Assembly: GCA_028824295.1 (NCBI GenBank)
Contig: JAPPED010000016.1
Span: 1 to 64,000 of the forward strand
Source of the DNA: Rhodospirillales bacterium
GTDB lineage: Bacteria > Pseudomonadota > Alphaproteobacteria > TMED109
Reading direction: 5' to 3'
DNA: 64,000 nt
Of this stretch, positions 52,912 to 62,632 are shown piece after piece. The position numbers and the translations under genes are program-made. The notes beneath the pieces were generated by a model. That model saw nothing but the letters and a program-made list of their open reading frames with translations. It did no database searches and had not been told where the DNA came from. Positions within the stretch are counted from its first letter, which is position 1, and every line of letters starts with the position of its first letter.

Positions 52912-53799
52912 TCAGGGTTCCCGCTCCAGGCTTCGCACTGCTGCTTCCATCAGACGTTCCACTTCCTGCGCCAGGAACTCCATGGAGCGCGGACTATCGA
53001 GTGTTTCTCGGGCGGCGTCCCGGCTCACGAAGCGCCGTATTTCCATGCCGAACGCCGGGAATCGGACGATGTCCCCCACGCTGTTGGCGGCAATCTCCAG
53101 CCAGGATGGAGGTGTGCGGTGGTCCCGCATCTTCGCCTGCAACAGGTCCGCGCGGATCTCCGTGCCTTGCACGTGCAGCCAGTGCATGTCCCAGACGTCG
53201 CGATAGCGCGGCCGGTCCCGTGTTGCTACGGACGAGGGAAAGGCTACGAGCTTGTTAGCGAGGATCTCCTCTCGGCTCTGCACGGCGATCAGCATGTCCA
53301 GATCGGGCAGCACGGCATATTGTCGGGCGATCCTTCGCACCTCCCGCGTGTGGCTCGGCGCGTTGTCGATGTCGAGCTTGACCCTCAGCATGGGAAGGTC
53401 GCTGCGGCCGGAAGGAGAGGGGATGGCGATTCGCCAGGAGGCGACCGACACGCTCTCCGACAGCGGGCGCCGCCGCGCGGACTTCGGGAGGGTTACGGAT
53501 GCGTCAAGGCCGCAGCGCTCCGCGAGTCCCTTCTCCAGGGCGTCGGCCAGACCCGCCAACCGCTCCGCCTCGAAATCCGGCCCGCCCGAGAAGTCCAGGT
53601 CCTCGCTAAACCGCGGGGCGCCATGGCAGAGTCGCAGGGAAGTACCGCCCTGGAACGTCAGTTCGTCGAGGAACCCTCCGCGTTCCATCATGAACAGCAA
53701 TTCGTGATGCAACAGTTCCTTCTCGACGACCGGGCGCAGTCCGTCGAGATCGGGATCCCGCATGGCCGTATCCACCAGGTAGTGGAAATCCTGCCTCAT
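52912..53799 (-). CDS. AbiEii-type nucleotidyltransferase toxin
   Basis: A 295-residue member of the AbiEii/AbiGii/MenT nucleotidyltransferase family: FQGGTSLRLCHGAPRFSEDLDF holds the GS-like and DxD catalytic motifs, followed by VKLDIDNAP and a REEILANKLVA ... RYRDVWDMHWL segment. In known AbiE systems it is the toxin of a type IV toxin-antitoxin phage-defence pair. Its start overlaps the antitoxin stop (ATGA). Confidence 0.92.
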   Translation of the reverse strand: MRQDFHYLVDTAMRDPDLDGLRPVVEKELLHHELLFMMERGGFLDELTFQGGTSLRLCHGAPRFSEDLDFSGGPDFEAERLAGLADALEKGLAERCGLDASVTLPKSARRRPLSESVSVASWRIAIPSPSGRSDLPMLRVKLDIDNAPSHTREVRRIARQYAVLPDLDMLIAVQSREEILANKLVAFPSSVATRDRPRYRDVWDMHWLHVQGTEIRADLLQAKMRDHRTPPSWLEIAANSVGDIVRFPAFGMEIRRFVSRDAARETLDSPRSMEFLAQEVERLMEAAVRSLEREP

Positions 53800-54356
53800 G
53801 CCACAGCCTGCTCGGCGAGAATGTCGCGATACGCTTCCATGTCGACCGTGTGCAGATTGCGTCCGACTCGCTTCAGGTCGCGCAGCGCGGTCTCGATCCT
53901 GGCGATCCGCAGCGGCCGGCCCTCCATGACCAGGGTGTTCGCCAGAATGTTGCGCACCGGGCGGGCGGTATGCGTGAACTCGATCTCCCCGTAGCGGGTA
54001 TCAATCAGCCCACCCCGGCCCGTCGTCACGACCGTGATCCGGGAGATGGGGACCTGCGAGATCGCGCCGAATTCCGAGAGCGCCGACTCCAGACTGACAT
54101 AGCTGTATTCGCCCCGTCGCATGCAGGCCGCGATCTCCTCGACCAGATACTTCCGGGACCGCTGCGACAGCGCATTTACGTAAGTGCCTCTCGCCGCCCG
54201 TTCGAGCACACCTTGCGCAACCAGTCGCCGCAGCCCCTCGGAAAAGGTCTTCTCCGAGCGTTCGGGAAAGATCCGGCGCAGGTCGGCCACCGCGAAGACG
54301 GACTTGTCCTGCCGGTCCCACAGCGCCAGCGTCTTGACCGCTTCGAGTGACTTCAT
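53796..54356 (-). CDS. AbiEi-type antitoxin/transcriptional regulator
   Basis: A 186-residue AbiEi-like antitoxin with an N-terminal winged helix (FAVADLRRIFPERSEKTFSEGLRRLVAQGVLERAARGTYVN) and the family C-terminal domain (FTHTARPVRNILANTLVMEGRPLRIA, ETALRDL). ATG 54356 is preferred; ATG 54392 is an in-frame alternative. Partner of the AbiEii toxin. Confidence 0.9.
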   Translation of the reverse strand: MKSLEAVKTLALWDRQDKSVFAVADLRRIFPERSEKTFSEGLRRLVAQGVLERAARGTYVNALSQRSRKYLVEEIAACMRRGEYSYVSLESALSEFGAISQVPISRITVVTTGRGGLIDTRYGEIEFTHTARPVRNILANTLVMEGRPLRIARIETALRDLKRVGRNLHTVDMEAYRDILAEQAVA

Positions 54357-54598
54357 GGCGTTGCCCCGACCCAATATGTACGCCTTAACCATAGATTTAG
54401 AGGATTACTGTGTATATCAGGAGGGTTTGCCCGGCAGGGGCGAAGCCCCGATGACGTGCAGGCAGCAGTCAGCGATGTGACCCGGCGCGGCATGCTCCGG
54501 CACCCTCGGTACGACCGCCGCGCGGGAACTGCATCCGGCCCTCGAAAGCCAACGCCCGATCCGGACCATCCGGCACCAGTCGCTGCGCGGATATCGGG

Positions 54599-55519: not shown

Positions 55520-55612
55520 GGTGGCTCTTTCCCGCAATCGCGGCGCTGTTCCCAAGGATCGAAGCTACCGAAGTTCCTGCGATTGTCCTCCGATTCGCGG
55601 CAGGCGTCCTCT

Positions 55613-55999
55613 CTAATCGCGGCCTGTCGTCTTCAATAAATCTCGCAACGCCGGCAGCAGCACGGGAACGTCGTTGCAAACGATGTCCCAGACGACGTCA
55701 TTGTCGATGCGGAGATATTCATGACTGAGGCGGTTGCGTGTCCCGATGATGGTTTGCCAGGGGATCTCCGGATGGGCGTCACGGACCGATTCTGGGATCC
55801 GCATTGCCGCATCATCGATGAGCTCGAGGTTGCGCAGGGTGGCGTCGTATGGCATGGGGCTGGAGATGAACACAGCTTGATCCAGCCCGGCCGTATAGTC
55901 CCGGACCCTTTCGCAGAAGCCGATCATGTCATCGACGTAGAAGCGCCACTCCCTCGGTTCCCGTTCCCGCTCAGACTTGGAGCGCTTCGCGCTCCACAT
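55613..55999 (-). CDS. HEPN-domain (DUF86) ribonuclease-type toxin
   Basis: A 128-residue DUF86/HepT protein. The Rx4-6H motif is Arg88-x4-His93 in GTRNRLSHEYLRID. It pairs with the MNT nucleotidyltransferase antitoxin encoded by the overlapping upstream gene. HEPN toxins cleave RNA; MNT partners AMPylate and silence them. A decayed second copy is at 61803-62085. Confidence 0.88.
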   Translation of the reverse strand: MWSAKRSKSEREREPREWRFYVDDMIGFCERVRDYTAGLDQAVFISSPMPYDATLRNLELIDDAAMRIPESVRDAHPEIPWQTIIGTRNRLSHEYLRIDNDVVWDIVCNDVPVLLPALRDLLKTTGRD

Positions 56000-56261
56000 A
56001 GGGACGCAATTCCCGGCGCAATGCGCTGTCGGTCACCAGATCGACGGACCGGCCCAGCAGGTCTTCGATATAGAACTGCGTGCCAATGTTACGCGCGGAG
56101 GTTGCACGCCCGGCGAAACGAACAAGGAGATCGACATCGCTGTCTTCAGCCGCTCGGTTGCGGGCGATGGAACCGAACAGGGCGAGATCGGTGACGTTGA
56201 ACTGCTCCGCAAGGGCCTTCTTATGTGTCCGCAGTAGAGCGAGGACTTCGTCTCTGGTCAC
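55971..56261 (-). CDS. MNT minimal nucleotidyltransferase antitoxin
   Basis: A 96-residue MNT-type nucleotidyltransferase with the GSx10Dx(D) motif: Gly30-Ser31 ... Asp42 and Asp44 (LFGSIARNRAAEDSDVDLLV). It overlaps the HEPN toxin by 29 bases. Intact, unlike its second copy at 62098-62385. Confidence 0.9.
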   Translation of the reverse strand: MTRDEVLALLRTHKKALAEQFNVTDLALFGSIARNRAAEDSDVDLLVRFAGRATSARNIGTQFYIEDLLGRSVDLVTDSALRRELRPYVEREALQV

Positions 56262-56570
56262 CGGCCGTTCCTCGCCAGTCGTGTCCCGAAGATTTCAAGT
56301 GCCACGGATCAACTGACCCTAGTCTAGTGCTGCGGTGGTACCGCTATCTTCAGCGTCTATCTTCAGCGTCGAGAGACCGAGGCACCAGGACGCTTGGCAG
56401 ATGTCGATATCGACCACGTCGCGGGCGGCGTCATGGTCGACATTCAAGCAGTAGGGTTCCCGAACGCGCCACGTTCAGCACCGCTTTGAACTCCGCATAC
56501 AGCCTGTCCATTTCGGGATAGTGGTGCAGTTTTACTCTTGCCCCCTTCCAAGTTTCGGAGCGGGCCGCTC

Positions 56571-56612
56571 TCATTGGTCTACTTGAATGTGCCACTCGCC
56601 GTTCCATTCCGG
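56571..56612 (-). pseudogene. Tail of a second methyltransferase-HNH gene
   Basis: Minus-strand translation PEWNGEWHIQVDQ matches the PEWIGERHIQVG C-terminus of the gene at 62633. The original stop codon is changed to CAA here and a TGA follows directly. Everything upstream of these 13 codons is missing. Confidence 0.72.
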
Positions 56613-56688
56613 TGGTGGACTTGGGACCAAGTATGATGAAGGCGAAGAACGCATGTTTGAAGGTGTATACGCGAAGATGAGGCTGTAA
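56587..56688 (+). CDS. Short open frame at the truncated end of a gene cassette
   Basis: A 33-codon frame ending in TAA four bases before an attC-like site. From about GGGLGTKYDEGEERMF on it reads like the C-terminus of a cassette protein; the first codons come from the duplicated segment, so the junction at 56612 cut off its proper 5' part. No family recognised; may not be expressed. Confidence 0.3.
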   Translation: MCHSPFHSGGGLGTKYDEGEERMFEGVYAKMRL

Positions 56689-56691
56689 ACT

Positions 56692-56763
56692 GCTTAACCA
56701 GTCGCTTCAGCCGACGGCCAACCCGCTACGCGGCTTGCCCGCGGCTGAGTTTGGTCGTTAGAC
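56692..56763 (+). other. attC-like integron recombination site A
   Basis: 72 bases with consensus core sites: R'' GCTTAAC (RYYYAAC) and R' GTTAGAC (GTTRRRY) as imperfect inverted ends. Inside, CAGTCGCTTCAGCCG faces CGGCTGAGTTTGGTC, forming the L''/L' stem with mismatches, and the central part is a variable GC-rich loop. TTCAGCCGAC resembles the TTCAAGCCGAC of the classical aadA attC. Confidence 0.7.
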
Positions 56764-56789
56764 CTTCCATCTGCAATTAGCTTTCGCTA

Positions 56790-57359
56790 ATGCCAAATGC
56801 AGCGCGCAGTGCCTTCCGGATGCCCCGCCCAGTCAAGATCACTGGGCGAACATCAACGATCACTAATTCCTTCGTCAATGCAATCGTTCCTGTTATTGAA
56901 CCGACCGACGATGAGATCCTATCCGTACTACGGGTGCTCGATATGGATGTGGCAGATGTCCGATGCGCATACTGCGGTGATCCAGCAACCGAATGGGACC
57001 ATTTGGAGCCCATCGTCTCCGAAAAGCGCCCGACAGGCTATATCTCTGAAATCGCAAATCTTGTCCCAGCGTGCGGGAAGTGCAACCAGTCGAAGAGTGG
57101 GAGACGTTGGAGAGACTGGATCCAAGGACCAGCAGCTCTCTCCCCGAAAACGCGGGGAGTCCAAGATCTGCAGAAGCGAGTTGAACGCCTAGAGCACTTC
57201 GAGGCGATCCATTCTCGTCGTGTTATTGACTTCGAGGCGGTAGTTCCACCAGACCTTTGGGCCGCTCACTGGCGTAATCACGATGAGCTGCATCGAATGA
57301 TGCGCACGAGTCAGGGAACCGCCGAGCAAGTCCGCAATGCTGCCAAACGTGCAATCTAG
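56790..57359 (+). CDS. HNH endonuclease (gene-cassette encoded)
   Basis: A 189-residue HNH nuclease: zinc-knuckle Cys59/Cys62 (CAYCGD), His71 (TEWDHLEPI), Asn90 (SEIANLVPAC) and Cys95/Cys98 (CGKCNQSKSGR). No specificity domain is recognisable. It begins 26 bases after attC-like site A and ends one base before attC-like site B, the layout of an integron cassette. Base composition is lower in GC than the host genes, supporting transfer. Confidence 0.85.
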   Translation: MPNAARSAFRMPRPVKITGRTSTITNSFVNAIVPVIEPTDDEILSVLRVLDMDVADVRCAYCGDPATEWDHLEPIVSEKRPTGYISEIANLVPACGKCNQSKSGRRWRDWIQGPAALSPKTRGVQDLQKRVERLEHFEAIHSRRVIDFEAVVPPDLWAAHWRNHDELHRMMRTSQGTAEQVRNAAKRAI

Positions 57360-57420
57360 GTATAACCAGTCGCTCCGGCCAACGCCGCCCACATGGCGCG
57401 GCTGAGCTTGGTCGATATGC
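57360..57420 (+). other. attC-like integron recombination site B
   Basis: 61 bases starting right after the HNH stop codon. It shares TAACCAGTCGCT, GGCCAAC, CGCGGCTGAG and TTGGTCG with site A in the same order, with a shorter loop. R'' is GTATAAC and R' GATATGC, so the cleavage core has drifted from GTT to GAT and the site may be inactive. Confidence 0.6.
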
Positions 57421-57439
57421 ACTCGACATATTCGTCGGA

Positions 57440-58288
57440 ATGACCTTGTCCGAACACACGATTTCCGCCCTCGGTGCCATCATCACTGGTGATGGCGGAA
57501 TGACCCCGTACCGTTCTGGACCTGAACTCGTGAAATTCTTCAACCGGTTCGAACGAGCAGACGAATACAGCGGAGGATTCCCGTCTCGTTGGTACTACGC
57601 GGAGGAGTGCATTCGTGAGCTGAACGCAAGCGGTCTAGGTTCCGATGTCGTTGTTGCGACGCTAGATCGTCGACACTTTCTCGGGGGAAAGCACGACCCA
57701 GATGCAGTTGCCGAGCACTTGAATCAGTTCCTTGAGTTCGACGGCTACGAGATTCAGGCGTACGGAAAGAAGTGGCGAGTTGTTCCTCTCGCGGAGGAAG
57801 TTGACGTACCGACTATTTTGATCCCGACCGGAAGCGTGACGCACGATTTCTTGGCCGAACAAGTTCGGAAGTGTACTGAGAAGCTCCAAGCCGAAGACTA
57901 TGACGGTGCAATCACGAATGCGCGGTCGATGCTCGAGGCTACGTTAGTATCGCTTGAACGGCAACTTGTCGACGACCCTCCTGACTACGACGGAAACCTT
58001 CCAAAGCTGTACCGCCGGGTACAAAAGGAACTCAACCTGACTCCCGGCCAACAGGGTCTAGCCGACAGCCTGCGCCAGATCCTATCCGGGCTCACTAGCG
58101 TAACGAACGGCTTGGCTGCCTTACGAAACACAATGAGTGATTCTCATGTCGTCACATATAGGCCGGCGCGGCGCCATGCCCAGCTCGCAGTCAATGCTTC
58201 GCGTACCTTGGCCCGGTTTCTTTTCGAAACGCACGAGTATCAGCTCTCAAGGCGGAAAGAGACAGAGCGTGCAGAACAAACGCATTGA
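57440..58288 (+). CDS. Abortive infection family protein (Abi_C domain)
   Basis: A 282-residue protein. The C-terminal half matches the abortive-infection C-terminal domain: LQAEDYDGAITNARSMLEATL, LPKLYRRVQKELNLTP, LRQILSGLTSVTNGLAALRNTMSDSH and RHAQLAVNASRTLARFL. The RNxxSDxH segment is HEPN-like. The N-terminal 120 residues are a variable sensor region. It lies 20 bases after attC-like site B and so is probably the next cassette. Probable phage defence role; not proven. Confidence 0.85.
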   Translation: MTLSEHTISALGAIITGDGGMTPYRSGPELVKFFNRFERADEYSGGFPSRWYYAEECIRELNASGLGSDVVVATLDRRHFLGGKHDPDAVAEHLNQFLEFDGYEIQAYGKKWRVVPLAEEVDVPTILIPTGSVTHDFLAEQVRKCTEKLQAEDYDGAITNARSMLEATLVSLERQLVDDPPDYDGNLPKLYRRVQKELNLTPGQQGLADSLRQILSGLTSVTNGLAALRNTMSDSHVVTYRPARRHAQLAVNASRTLARFLFETHEYQLSRRKETERAEQTH

Positions 58289-58332
58289 GCGAACTGGCCC
58301 AATCGCGTATCGATTGGGCCAGTTCGCTAATG
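58283..58332. terminator. Long perfect hairpin after the Abi gene
   Basis: An 18-bp perfect stem (AGCGAACTGGCCCAATCG/CGATTGGGCCAGTTCGCT) around a 5-base CGTAT loop, extended by CATT/AATG with one bulged G. It overlaps the stop codon of the Abi gene. No T run. It could be a terminator or an atypical cassette-end site; it lacks the GTTRRRY core of attC. Confidence 0.55.
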
Positions 58333-58334
58333 CC

Positions 58335-58829
58335 TCTCGCTATCAATTCAGAAGCCGCAATTCCGGGGTGATGTTCGCGTAAGGGTGAACCAATTGAGTC
58401 GCCCTTCGTCGGCACATCCACGTCCCGAATTCGCCACAGACTCTCGGTGAAGTACGCCATCTTGAACTCGGGTTATTCCCCTCGCGAGACCGCCGACGAG
58501 TTCGCGTCCGATACGTGCGTTTCGGGTAACGACAGCGACTACGCGGCGTACACTCATACGCAACGCCCAAGCGGAGGCGAGACGCCCCAGGGGAAACTCG
58601 CCGCTGCGTCCCCGTGCGAGGATCGTCTCACACGACAAGGCTATCTTCGCCGGCGCTCGGACTGAACCGTGGCGGCGTCCGGTCCGGTTTCGCGTGCCCC
58701 ATTTGCGATCCGGACCTTTGATCAGTCGAGGCTTTCTCCTTGGGCTTCCACGTGGAAGCTCGGGAGTCTCCCCGACAAGACCAACTCCGGGACCAACCTT
58801 CGGACGGAAGGGCGTCGCAGGCTTTCATC
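58335..58829. other. Intergenic region without recognisable gene
   Basis: About 500 bases between the cassette-like hairpin and the nuclease-like gene on the other strand. Several short open frames exist in both directions but none resembles a known protein. Confidence 0.4.
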
Positions 58830-59663
58830 TCATGTTCCACCGACTTCGAGCAGCAGCCGGCAATGGTCGCTCGCCCCCATGCCTCCACGCCATAGAGGGC
58901 ACGAACCGTCACGTCTGCATGGAGTCCGCGGGAGGCAAAGGCGTAGTCCAGCTGGCGGTTCGTCTCGGCCGGCTTCTGGCGGTTGGAGTGCCAGGTCGGA
59001 ACGTCCCGCGTGTCCCCGGAGCTGTCCAAGGGGTGTGGATGACGCTGCTCTTTCGTTCGGAAGTTGCAGTCCGAGAAACTCGAGGCCGAGCGCCTTGAAG
59101 CGATCCCAGACGACGCGTTCGCGCGCATACCACGGCGCTTCGGTGGCTCCGTAGCATAGGTTCAGGTCGCCGGCCGCGAGCATCGGGTAATGGGAAGGGT
59201 CAAGGTAGTCCATGAAGCTTTGGAGGTTTGAGAGGATGCGGTGCACTGAGATGTCAGCGTGGCGACCCGGTGTCTCTACGGTTGTGCTCGGGTGCGCCCG
59301 CGTCCACCGCGCGTACATTGACACGGCAAGAAACGCCTCTTCTGTTTGTCCGCACGGCACCACGCGCGCAACCGCCAGCGTTCCGCTGCCGCTTACTTCG
59401 ATTTCCCGCTCGTCGCGCCACCATCCCAGCGCGGGAACCTGCCGGAACCACTCGACCTCCACCTTGTCGGACAGCTGCACGACCAGCGGCCTCCGGTCGA
59501 ACGACGTCGGTTCCAGGGCGTCATTCTCGTAGCGGAACCGGTCGGCAATCTCGCCGGGCGGATCTCCTGCCTCCTGTAGCAGCGCAAGGCCAACTTCGCC
59601 CCGGCTGGCCATCTCCGCCAGTTCAAACCACGGGTCCCGCTTTTGGGCGATGTTCCAGCTCAC
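58830..59663 (-). pseudogene. Endonuclease/exonuclease/phosphatase family gene with two compensating frameshifts
   Basis: The main frame (277 codons) starts like an EEP enzyme (MSWNIAQKRDPW, VGLALLQEA, MLAAGDLNLCYG) and ends correctly with ASDHCRLLLEV. Between about 59028 and 58875 the family sequence (DTRDVPTWHSNRQ, QLDYAFASRGLH, VRALYGVEAWG) is in a different frame. Each switch falls at a G run (CCGGGG and TGGGGG), consistent with one inserted and one deleted G. It is either a true pseudogene or two homopolymer sequencing errors. The start is GTG 59663 and uncertain. Confidence 0.72.
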
Positions 59664-59949
59664 GCCCCTGATGATTCTATCGGTTACGCACCGCGTCCTG
59701 GCTTTTCAGATGACACGCGGGCTTGGCTGGCCATACCGGACGATGCGTCGGCGGGTCCGGACCCACTATGCAGGAAAATCGGCTGCCTTGCGGGATACCC
59801 AGCGCTCACAGCCGCGCCCGGCGGCCGAGATCGAATGTAGACAATCGACATGTAGGATCCAGCATGGGCAAATGGATGCGGATTACGACCGCCGGGTTTC
59901 GTTCGAACTGACGGTTGATGCCGTGCCATCACCCGCGGACAGAAATTGG

Positions 59950-60004
59950 TTGTGAACATTATTCACAAAATAGGATTGTGCTGACGTTCCTATCATGATA
60001 TATA
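59950..60004 (+). promoter_or_regulatory. Promoter and operator of the HTH-ParA gene
   Basis: A perfect palindrome TTGTGAA-N5-TTCACAA (59950-59968) lies 7 bases upstream of a -35 TTGTGC (59976-59981), which is 17 bases from a -10 TATATA (59999-60004). The start codon is at 60041. The operator is well placed for autorepression by the HTH of the encoded protein. Confidence 0.6.
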
Positions 60005-60040
60005 AGTGGCCTTCTCGTCGTGCGATGAAAGGAAACCGTC

Positions 60041-61120
60041 ATGAATCGATCAGCGCTGGTAGGCATCGCCGAGATAGCGGAACTGTTCGGCGTGTCTCGA
60101 CAGGCCGCCTCTAACTGGCGTGAGCGACATGCCGACTTTCCACCGCCTACTGCGTCCCTGAAGAGCGGCCCGGTATGGGAGTTGCCGGACATACTTGCTT
60201 GGGGAGACGAACGTAAGATGAAGGTTAAGGTCGCGAAGGCGGATGCGTTAAAGTCTGGTGCTGATACCGAAGCTAAGTGTGTAGTTGTTGCGATGGTGAA
60301 TATGAAAGGCGGGGTTGGCAAGTCAACTCTAACAGCGAACATCGGCTGGTACTGTGCGTACTATAGAAACTTGCGCGTCTTGATGGTCGATCTCGATCCT
60401 CAGTTCAACCTGAGCCAATATGTACTCGGAAATGACCGTTATGAGGAACATCTGAAGGCAAGCAAGCCGACAATTGTGGACATTCTCGAACAACACACAC
60501 CTGGAAATGGAGCTAAAGGGGGCATTGGCAGGGAGGCGATCACCGTCGCCCGAAAATGGGACGATGGCAGCTTGATACATGTGATTCCATCGAAACTAGA
60601 GCTGGCTTGGACGTTGAAGAACCCTCATCAAAAGGAGCATCTAGTCAGGGACTATCTCCAGGACATCAGGGACGGTTACGATCTAATCCTCATCGATTGT
60701 CCGCCAACTGAGTCGATGCTGACGGCGGCTGCCTACATGAGTAGCGATTTTTTGGTTGTGCCGGTACGGCCTGAGTATCTCTCCACCATCGGTCTACCGC
60801 TGCTCGTACGTTCACTTGCTGATTACAAGAAAGCATACAAGAACGAGCCACATCCGAAACTAGCAGGCATCGTCTTCAATGATTCGGACGATTCAAAACC
60901 AGAACACCGCCGGTCGCGAGAAACCGTGGGAAAGGTTGCCACGGAACAGGGATGGGACATCTTCGACGGGCAGCTAACACACTCTGACTCGTACCCGGCC
61001 GGCGCTCGCACCGGTAAACCTATTTTCCTGACAGATTACGCCCGACACTGGAAGAAAGAGGAGCTGTATGTCGTTGCCCAGGAATTCATGGAGCGGGTCG
61101 GCCTCAAGGGGAGCAGCTAA
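60041..61120 (+). CDS. ParA-family ATPase with N-terminal helix-turn-helix
   Basis: A 359-residue protein. Residues 1-57 are an AlpA/excisionase-like helix-turn-helix (GIAEIAELFGVSRQAASNWRER, WELPDILAWGDER). The rest is a ParA/Soj ATPase: deviant Walker A MKGGVGKSTLTANIG, the signature DLDPQFNLSQYVLG, Walker B DLILIDCPPTESML and DFLVVPVRPEYLSTIGL. AGGA lies upstream of ATG 60041. The 181-residue partner gene follows after 2 bases. Its codon use and GC are lower than in the host genes. It looks plasmid- or island-derived; partition, transfer or defence are all possible. Confidence 0.85.
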   Translation: MNRSALVGIAEIAELFGVSRQAASNWRERHADFPPPTASLKSGPVWELPDILAWGDERKMKVKVAKADALKSGADTEAKCVVVAMVNMKGGVGKSTLTANIGWYCAYYRNLRVLMVDLDPQFNLSQYVLGNDRYEEHLKASKPTIVDILEQHTPGNGAKGGIGREAITVARKWDDGSLIHVIPSKLELAWTLKNPHQKEHLVRDYLQDIRDGYDLILIDCPPTESMLTAAAYMSSDFLVVPVRPEYLSTIGLPLLVRSLADYKKAYKNEPHPKLAGIVFNDSDDSKPEHRRSRETVGKVATEQGWDIFDGQLTHSDSYPAGARTGKPIFLTDYARHWKKEELYVVAQEFMERVGLKGSS

Positions 61121-61122
61121 CC

Positions 61123-61668
61123 ATGGGTAGGAGGCGTCCACCTTTGGTGGCTGAGATAGGCCGTTTGTTCGCGGAATATCCGGAGAAAGACTGGAGAGCA
61201 CTGGCAAGTCGCTTGCGAGATCGAGAGGTGATCGAGGACATCGCGAGGGCAATCGAAGACGCGGCGGCCGCGGCCACGAAATCGGTGGAGAAGACGAAGA
61301 AGAAGCGCCGAAGAGTTCGCGAGAGTTTGTTGACCAGAATCGCACGAGAGGACAAAGTCAAGGCTGAGATCCTGTCAGCGATCAAGTCACGCCTGACTAA
61401 CAAGGACAAAACTCTAGCTCTCGCGGAGATTCGACAGTTCGCCACTTCGCTCGGAATGAAGGAAGAACTTGCTGTTCGCCGGAATCAGGCAGCAAATCAG
61501 ATCGTCCGCCATTTGGCGACCAAATCGACGGAAGAAATCGAAGCCGCCTTGCATACGACGTTGCCTGAGCACCAGCCTCCCGGGGAGGAGTTTGGTCGTT
61601 GGGTTGAGCTGATTCTTGGGAGCGACACGAAGACAGGACAACCGAAAAACCCAGACGAAAATGGCTAA
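61123..61668 (+). CDS. Unknown basic helical partner of the ParA-like ATPase
   Basis: A 181-residue protein with no recognised domain. It is strongly helical and charged, with a Lys/Arg-rich patch at about residues 50-67 (TKSVEKTKKKRRRVRESLL) and no ParB HTH or CTPase motif. GGGGAG precedes ATG 61123, and the 2-base spacing shows co-translation with the ATPase. By position it would be the DNA-binding or effector partner; that is inference. Confidence 0.65.
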   Translation: MGRRRPPLVAEIGRLFAEYPEKDWRALASRLRDREVIEDIARAIEDAAAAATKSVEKTKKKRRRVRESLLTRIAREDKVKAEILSAIKSRLTNKDKTLALAEIRQFATSLGMKEELAVRRNQAANQIVRHLATKSTEEIEAALHTTLPEHQPPGEEFGRWVELILGSDTKTGQPKNPDENG

Positions 61669-61802
61669 CACGGAATTGTCAAGATGCAGGCTCTACTGCC
61701 AGATGAGCGGGTCCCTGCTCCCGCTGTTCAGGTCTCCATGGAGGATTGTATCGACGTAGCGAGGACGGGATTCTCCGGCCCTCTCGCGCTTGACCCGACT
61801 CG

Positions 61803-62085
61803 ACGTCCCAGACGATGTCGTTATCGATACCGAGATAACCGTGAATGAGGCGGTTGCGGATCCCGATGATCGCCAGGGAATCTCCTGATGGGCGTCACGG
61901 ACCGATTGAGGCGTCTGGGTCGCAGCCTCGCCGATGAGTTCGAGATTGCGCAGAGTGGCGTTGTAAGGCATGGGGCTGGCGACGCACGCAGCTTGGCCCA
62001 GCCCGGCGGTGTAGTCCCGCACCCATTCTCAGAAGCCGATCATGTCCTCGACGTAGAAGCGCTACCGCCGAGGTTCCCGGTCCCG
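61803..62085 (-). pseudogene. Decayed HEPN toxin, second copy
   Basis: Aligns with the intact HEPN gene at 55613-55999. The Cys codon of GFCERVRDY is TGA here (GF*), and a deletion in the GATGATGGTTTGCCAGG region shifts the frame before the Rx4-6H motif. The toxin cannot be made. Confidence 0.85.
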
Positions 62086-62097
62086 CTCAGACATGAA

Positions 62098-62385
62098 TCG
62101 CCTCGCGCTCACGCTCGATGTAGGGACGCCCTCCTCAGCGCAAGGTGCGGTCAGTCACTAGGTTGACGGGTTGGCCCAGCAGATCTTCGATGTAGAACTA
62201 CGTGCCGAAGTAGTGTTTGGAGGTCGCGCGACGGTCGAAATGAAAGAGGATATCGAGATCACTGTCTTCACCTAACTGATCGCGGGCGAAGGAACCGAAC
62301 TGGGTGAGATCGTTGACGCCGAAGGGAGTCGTCTTGTGCGTCCTCAGCAGTGCAAGGAATTTGTCTCTGGTCGTTGGCTGCCCCT
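62098..62385 (-). pseudogene. Decayed MNT antitoxin, second copy
   Basis: Aligns with the intact MNT gene at 55971-56261. The catalytic part survives (FGSFARDQLGEDSDLDILF), but the Gln codon in GTQFYIEDLLG is TAG (GT*FYIEDLLG), removing the C-terminal third. Similarity to copy 1 resumes after the stop. Confidence 0.85.
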
Positions 62386-62632
62386 GCTGTGTCCAGAAGA
62401 ACTTAAGCGCCACGGATCAACCGACTCTGATCGAGTGCGGCGCCAGGACGCACGCTTGAAATTGGGACCGACCACTTCGCTGGCCGCGTCAAAACCGGCA
62501 TGCGGGCCACCGGGGCATCGCGCGTTTCCGCGCCCGGCTCCGCCAGGAACTCGACATCGGGCCTATCCATTGGGGGCAATGGTGCAGATTCACTCTTGAT
62601 CCCTGCTAAATTCCCGGAGCGGACCGCCCTCA

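Follow-up and report, generated by a model that had tools for sequence, protein, structure and literature searches.

We find that the window (the whole stretch of 64,000 nucleotides analysed here) carries a two-site CALIN fragment in a variable defence-gene region of a probable alphaproteobacterium without integron integrase, and that positions 56758-57414 within it form a complete HNH cassette. We put the probability of this reading at about 0.88. The term CALIN denotes two or more clustered attC sites that no integron integrase accompanies (IntegronFinder 2 definition, PMC9024848), and the arrangement itself is a CALIN of ordinary, known type in an unusual host. With it, a well-supported cassette cluster becomes known from what is probably a class with almost no integrons, and a recurrent cassette-borne HNH nuclease comes to light. 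Two questions become testable, namely the route of cassettes into genomes free of intI and a possible part of the HNH nuclease in phage defence. The features are listed in Table 1.

Table 1. Features of the cassette cluster and its surroundings (positions in the window)
Feature	Position	Strand	Details
Variable region holding the cluster	55554..62610		absent in congener G027, 55553 joined to 62611
33-aa open frame	56587..56688	+	ends 3 nt before site A; from translation
attC site A	56692..56763	+	R'' GCTTAAC 56692-56698; R' GTTAGAC 56757-56763; cut after G56757
HNH gene cassette	56758..57414	+	657 bp, from TTAGAC to G of site B right core; rule G^TTRRRY
HNH endonuclease gene	56790..57359	+	189 aa; PF01844 E=1.3e-6
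attC site B (degenerate)	57360..57420	+	R'' GTATAAC; right core GATATGC 57414-57420, drifted
Abi_C (AbiJ-like) abortive-infection gene	57440..58288	+	PF14355 E=1.4e-20; PADLOC AbiJ E=6.7e-28
Long near-perfect hairpin	58281..58334		overlaps Abi stop codon; z=-9.5; not attC-like

The initial annotation had described two sites with the attC plan, and their coordinates proved right. We scored them with an independent covariance model (R1) built from 19 attC of intI-linked arrays in other genomes, none of them from the window or its genus. The training sites are strict ones in the usual orientation; several share arrays, and two come from the Stutzerimonas HNH array described below. Searched over the 64 kb on both strands, R1 matched site A with 36.4 bits (E=1.1e-7) and site B weakly with 14.2 bits (E=0.15), and found nothing else at E<=10, these E-values being rough owing to a short calibration. 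A covariance check of the kind proposed in the annotation, with R1 in place of the IntegronFinder model, is thus positive for site A and weak for site B. A second, home-made pair profile scored site A at 41.8 and site B at 28.6, and its maxima in 20 random 64-kb sequences ranged from 14.8 to 25.0. One further pair-profile match (23.0), on the minus strand at 53047-53120 within the AbiEii gene, falls within this random range, was missed by the covariance model and was dismissed. We know of no attC family in Rfam, and the Rfam scan, which gave no attC-type match, is therefore uninformative.

Site A is a secure and convincing attC, with RYYYAAC/GTTRRRY ends, an L''/L' stem with an extrahelical base, and a folded bottom strand (z=-4.6 against shuffles). 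Site B keeps the attC geometry and is a weakly supported, degenerate attC. Its right core has drifted, as had been proposed, with two deviations (A57415 and T57418), both of them on the right side of the cut; neither the L' arm nor the G on the left side is affected, and R'' differs from the consensus at one base. Because the bottom-strand fold of site B is no better than that of shuffles (z=-0.1), the case for it rests on its layout, its likeness to site A and its place at the HNH stop codon. The two sites point the same way at a distance of 668 bp, and direct repeats of 41 nt and 21 nt found by a repeat search (spacing 668/657) coincide with both ends of the sites. The short open frame upstream of site A, which had no match in plasmids, is perhaps the remnant of a preceding cassette gene.

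Between the two sites lies a complete single-gene cassette for a solitary HNH endonuclease. The open reading frame begins 32 nt into the cassette, and its TAG stop (57357-57359) abuts R'' of site B. It is worth noting that a TAA inside this R'' (57363-57365) is still in the HNH frame and that the same TAA serves as the stop in relatives from other bacteria. The protein matches its Pfam family above the cut-off and has the conserved residues C59/C62, D70/H71 and C95/C98/N99 of the HNH motif and zinc cysteines. Its structure model has a pLDDT of 88; a fold search of the model against the PDB gave no significant match, the top rows being the HNH domains of Cas9 and Cas5-HNH. The most probable role of the protein would be that of an accessory defence enzyme that cleaves foreign or modified DNA.

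It is also evident that relatives of the HNH gene reside in cassettes of unrelated bacteria, and we conclude that the gene travels as a cassette. A scan of genome contigs with the HNH protein yielded 178 relatives, and the best 80 were kept. Among these 80, an attC directly follows the HNH gene in seven, against 0.8 expected, and an above-threshold site precedes it in five (threshold, the 99th percentile of 564 control stretches). Measured from the stop codon, all seven downstream attC begin at an identical position, and the TAA of the stop falls within R''. Their hosts are Stutzerimonas, Pseudidiomarina, Microbulbifer, Aromatoleum, Zhongshania, Nitrosomonas and a Porticoccaceae MAG. In Stutzerimonas stutzeri V81 (G050, NZ_JAMOHY010000004.1), the HNH gene is part of an attC array with intI (383 bits, C4:134143-135072) about 6 kb from it, and the genomes of Pseudidiomarina, Porticoccaceae and Microbulbifer likewise contain intI. 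HNH genes that are nearly identical to one another share the ending CTATAAC and then continue into differing attC sequences. Nearly identical copies are spread over several genera and a Lentisphaerae MAG, although bins may be contaminated. The attC-linked rows are scattered over the HNH tree. Together with the R1 matches on both sides of the gene, these homologues bear out the proposal that the HNH gene is bracketed by attC as an integron cassette.

The closest HNH protein among the best 80 of the 178 relatives (82% identity) comes from a MAG labelled Thiotrichales (L085), and the window and L085 pair in the HNH tree with support 100/100. The DNA of L085 is 87% identical to the window over 56782-57356 and, separately, matches 55 nt of a site A-like attC; in the 12.6 kb compared, nothing matches beyond the HNH gene and the attC. 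Its attC is 72 nt long, the same length as site A, with 49/72 positions identical in a gapless alignment. It is decayed (score 13-14) and lies 3' of the HNH gene, whereas site A lies 5' of the gene in the window. Most of the best 80 HNH relatives have no detectable attC alongside, so the gene must spread in other ways too. No neighbouring gene recurs beside the HNH gene across distant hosts, and scans of viral contigs with the HNH protein, the Abi protein and the attC pattern gave nothing. Homologues on Hymenobacter plasmids (about 36% identical) are flanked by heavy-metal efflux and P-type ATPase genes and show no attC match. From a limited literature search, the HNH cassette family seems to be undescribed. 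We regard as unlikely the wider proposal that this solitary HNH family is a new stand-alone defence enzyme spread by cassettes across classes and phyla, and that integron-free lineages such as this probably alphaproteobacterial genus gain it by way of an IntI that works in trans on secondary GAT sites.

The initial annotation also took the Abi_C gene for cassette cargo, and here we depart from it. This gene lies only downstream of site B, its ATG 25 nt past the cut of that site. No attC follows it (best score 1.6 in 58230-58800, + strand), and none was found in the searched flanks of six Abi relatives (L168-L170, L181-L183), so we leave it out of the cassette claim. The annotation would have been refuted by HNH and Abi genes that are constant neighbours, and this is not the case: their relatives lie in different genomes, and no Abi gene accompanies the 82%-identical HNH gene. 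The hairpin that overlaps the Abi stop codon has 18-bp perfect arms without a T run and is possibly a terminator. The Abi protein contains a HEPN-like R-x6-H motif whose arginine is not conserved among relatives, and that the protein acts through this motif is a guess.

Neither the window nor the assembly as a whole yielded an intI, which agrees with the CALIN type proposed earlier. An intI family search of the host assembly gave partial Xer-like matches only, without the IntI-specific segment and none over the cut-off. As the host genome (3.02 Mb, the window being part of contig 16) is a draft of 35 contigs and 97.9% complete, the missing intI is not wholly certain. Likewise, intI was detected in none of 28 genomes of the order (E<=1e-30) and none of 289 genomes of the class (E<=1e-60), and 66 of 349 genomes across the phylum were positive (E<=1e-50), which provides a working control. 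The class of the host, which has at least 223 genera in our sample and is not that of G050, a member of the same phylum, is probably Alphaproteobacteria. Integrons have been described as extremely rare in (PMC9024848) or absent from (PMC9668308) Alphaproteobacteria. Matches to the attC model are also scarce, occurring in 2 of the 28 genomes of the order (E<=0.1), at different genomic places, and in 4 of the 289 genomes of the class (E<=0.001), the host of the window included; three other genomes of the class (L202, L203 and L204) have one strong attC each. In congener G026, two attC bracket a PIN_12-domain gene (L013:13166-14308) and form an independent small CALIN, and one of these attC is identical to site A at 60/72 bases.

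The contig is a genuine part of the host genome and not a stray, because its flanks on both sides of the variable region are collinear with same-genus genomes (~85-90% DNA identity). Congener G027 lacks 7 kb of the window at this place, 55553 running directly into 62611, and in congener G025 the same interval is filled by ~5.6 kb of other DNA. The G+C content of the variable region is 57.6%, compared with 68.9% to its left. This 7-kb region is a defence-gene region and contains a HepT-like/nucleotidyltransferase pair, the HNH cassette, the Abi gene and a ParA-like gene. The HepT-like/nucleotidyltransferase stretch is present twice (55681-56334 and 61801-62442, 75% DNA identity), in the same direction and near both edges of the region. 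At 60041-61668, a gene for a ParA-type ATPase whose N-terminal part is helix-turn-helix-like is followed by a gene for a 181-aa protein without family match, possibly an uncharacterised two-gene module. An AbiEi/AbiEii pair (type IV toxin-antitoxin) is found at 52912-54392, immediately left of the variable region.

We infer that the HNH cassette was excised from an array elsewhere and inserted here by IntI acting in trans; alternatively, it may have arrived already linked, within a larger transfer of the region. The cassette would now be stranded, as no integrase is present. Cassettes of CALINs are nevertheless still excisable or capturable by IntI in trans (PMC9668308), and site A still appears to be recombination-competent. 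The HNH protein would supply a DNA-cutting defence role.

One specific route of arrival is possible, though we give it less than an even chance: IntI could have inserted the cassette at a secondary, attG-like site. The left part of site B would then be an ordinary attC end, and the right core would represent the target G|ATATGC, which contains a GAT triplet and lies directly 5' of an Abi gene already resident there. Two of the six bases right of the cut (A57415 and T57418) depart from TTRRRY next to an intact L' arm and left G, and the lack of an attC after the Abi gene is as expected for a resident gene. GAT triplets are reported to be cleaved between G and A at secondary sites (PMC10127599), and Loot et al. 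2024, cited in PMC11023631, have reported cassette integration at attG. However, R'' of site B is also off consensus at one base, which makes general decay equally possible, and the 4/6 match to TTRRRY barely exceeds the chance expectation of 2.5. Moreover, no empty target site was found at base resolution, and the upstream site A means that at least one further cassette needs explaining.

It is rather unlikely that the cluster is instead what is left of a chromosomal integron that was formerly complete in this genus and has lost its intI and most of its cassettes. The G026 attC of the same type as site A, associated with other genes, would fit such an origin, but the lack of intI in all 28 genomes of the order and the confinement of attC to just two of them, at differing genomic places, argue against it. 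That both sites are chance or terminator-like hairpins with no cassette is highly improbable, since the poor fold of site B is outweighed by matches to an independent model, by the constant placement of the sites at the ends of genes and by the homologues found in arrays with intI.

The two-site CALIN with its HNH cassette can be compared with several known systems. Like AbiJ/Abi_C proteins, the neighbouring Abi protein has an Abi_C domain, and relatives 44% identical to it on Acinetobacter plasmids are annotated as abortive infection family; unlike them, its match to the PADLOC AbiJ model is limited to residues 90-265. With attG insertion, as far as the account of Loot et al. 2024 cited by PMC11023631 goes, the window shares a cassette in an integron-free genome and a GAT triplet at the 3' junction, whereas the insertion in the window is a candidate event only, and decay also fits. 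Compared with CALINs in general, the window has the two same-orientation attC-like sites, one complete cassette and no intI, and it differs in the degeneracy of site B and in its probably alphaproteobacterial host, integrons of that class having been reported as great rarities (PMC9024848) or as lacking altogether (PMC9668308). The V81 array is a complete one in which intI lies about 6 kb away and the attC belong to another sequence type, yet the Stutzerimonas stutzeri V81 cassette holds a homologous HNH gene (49% identity) and, as in the window, its attC starts at the stop codon.
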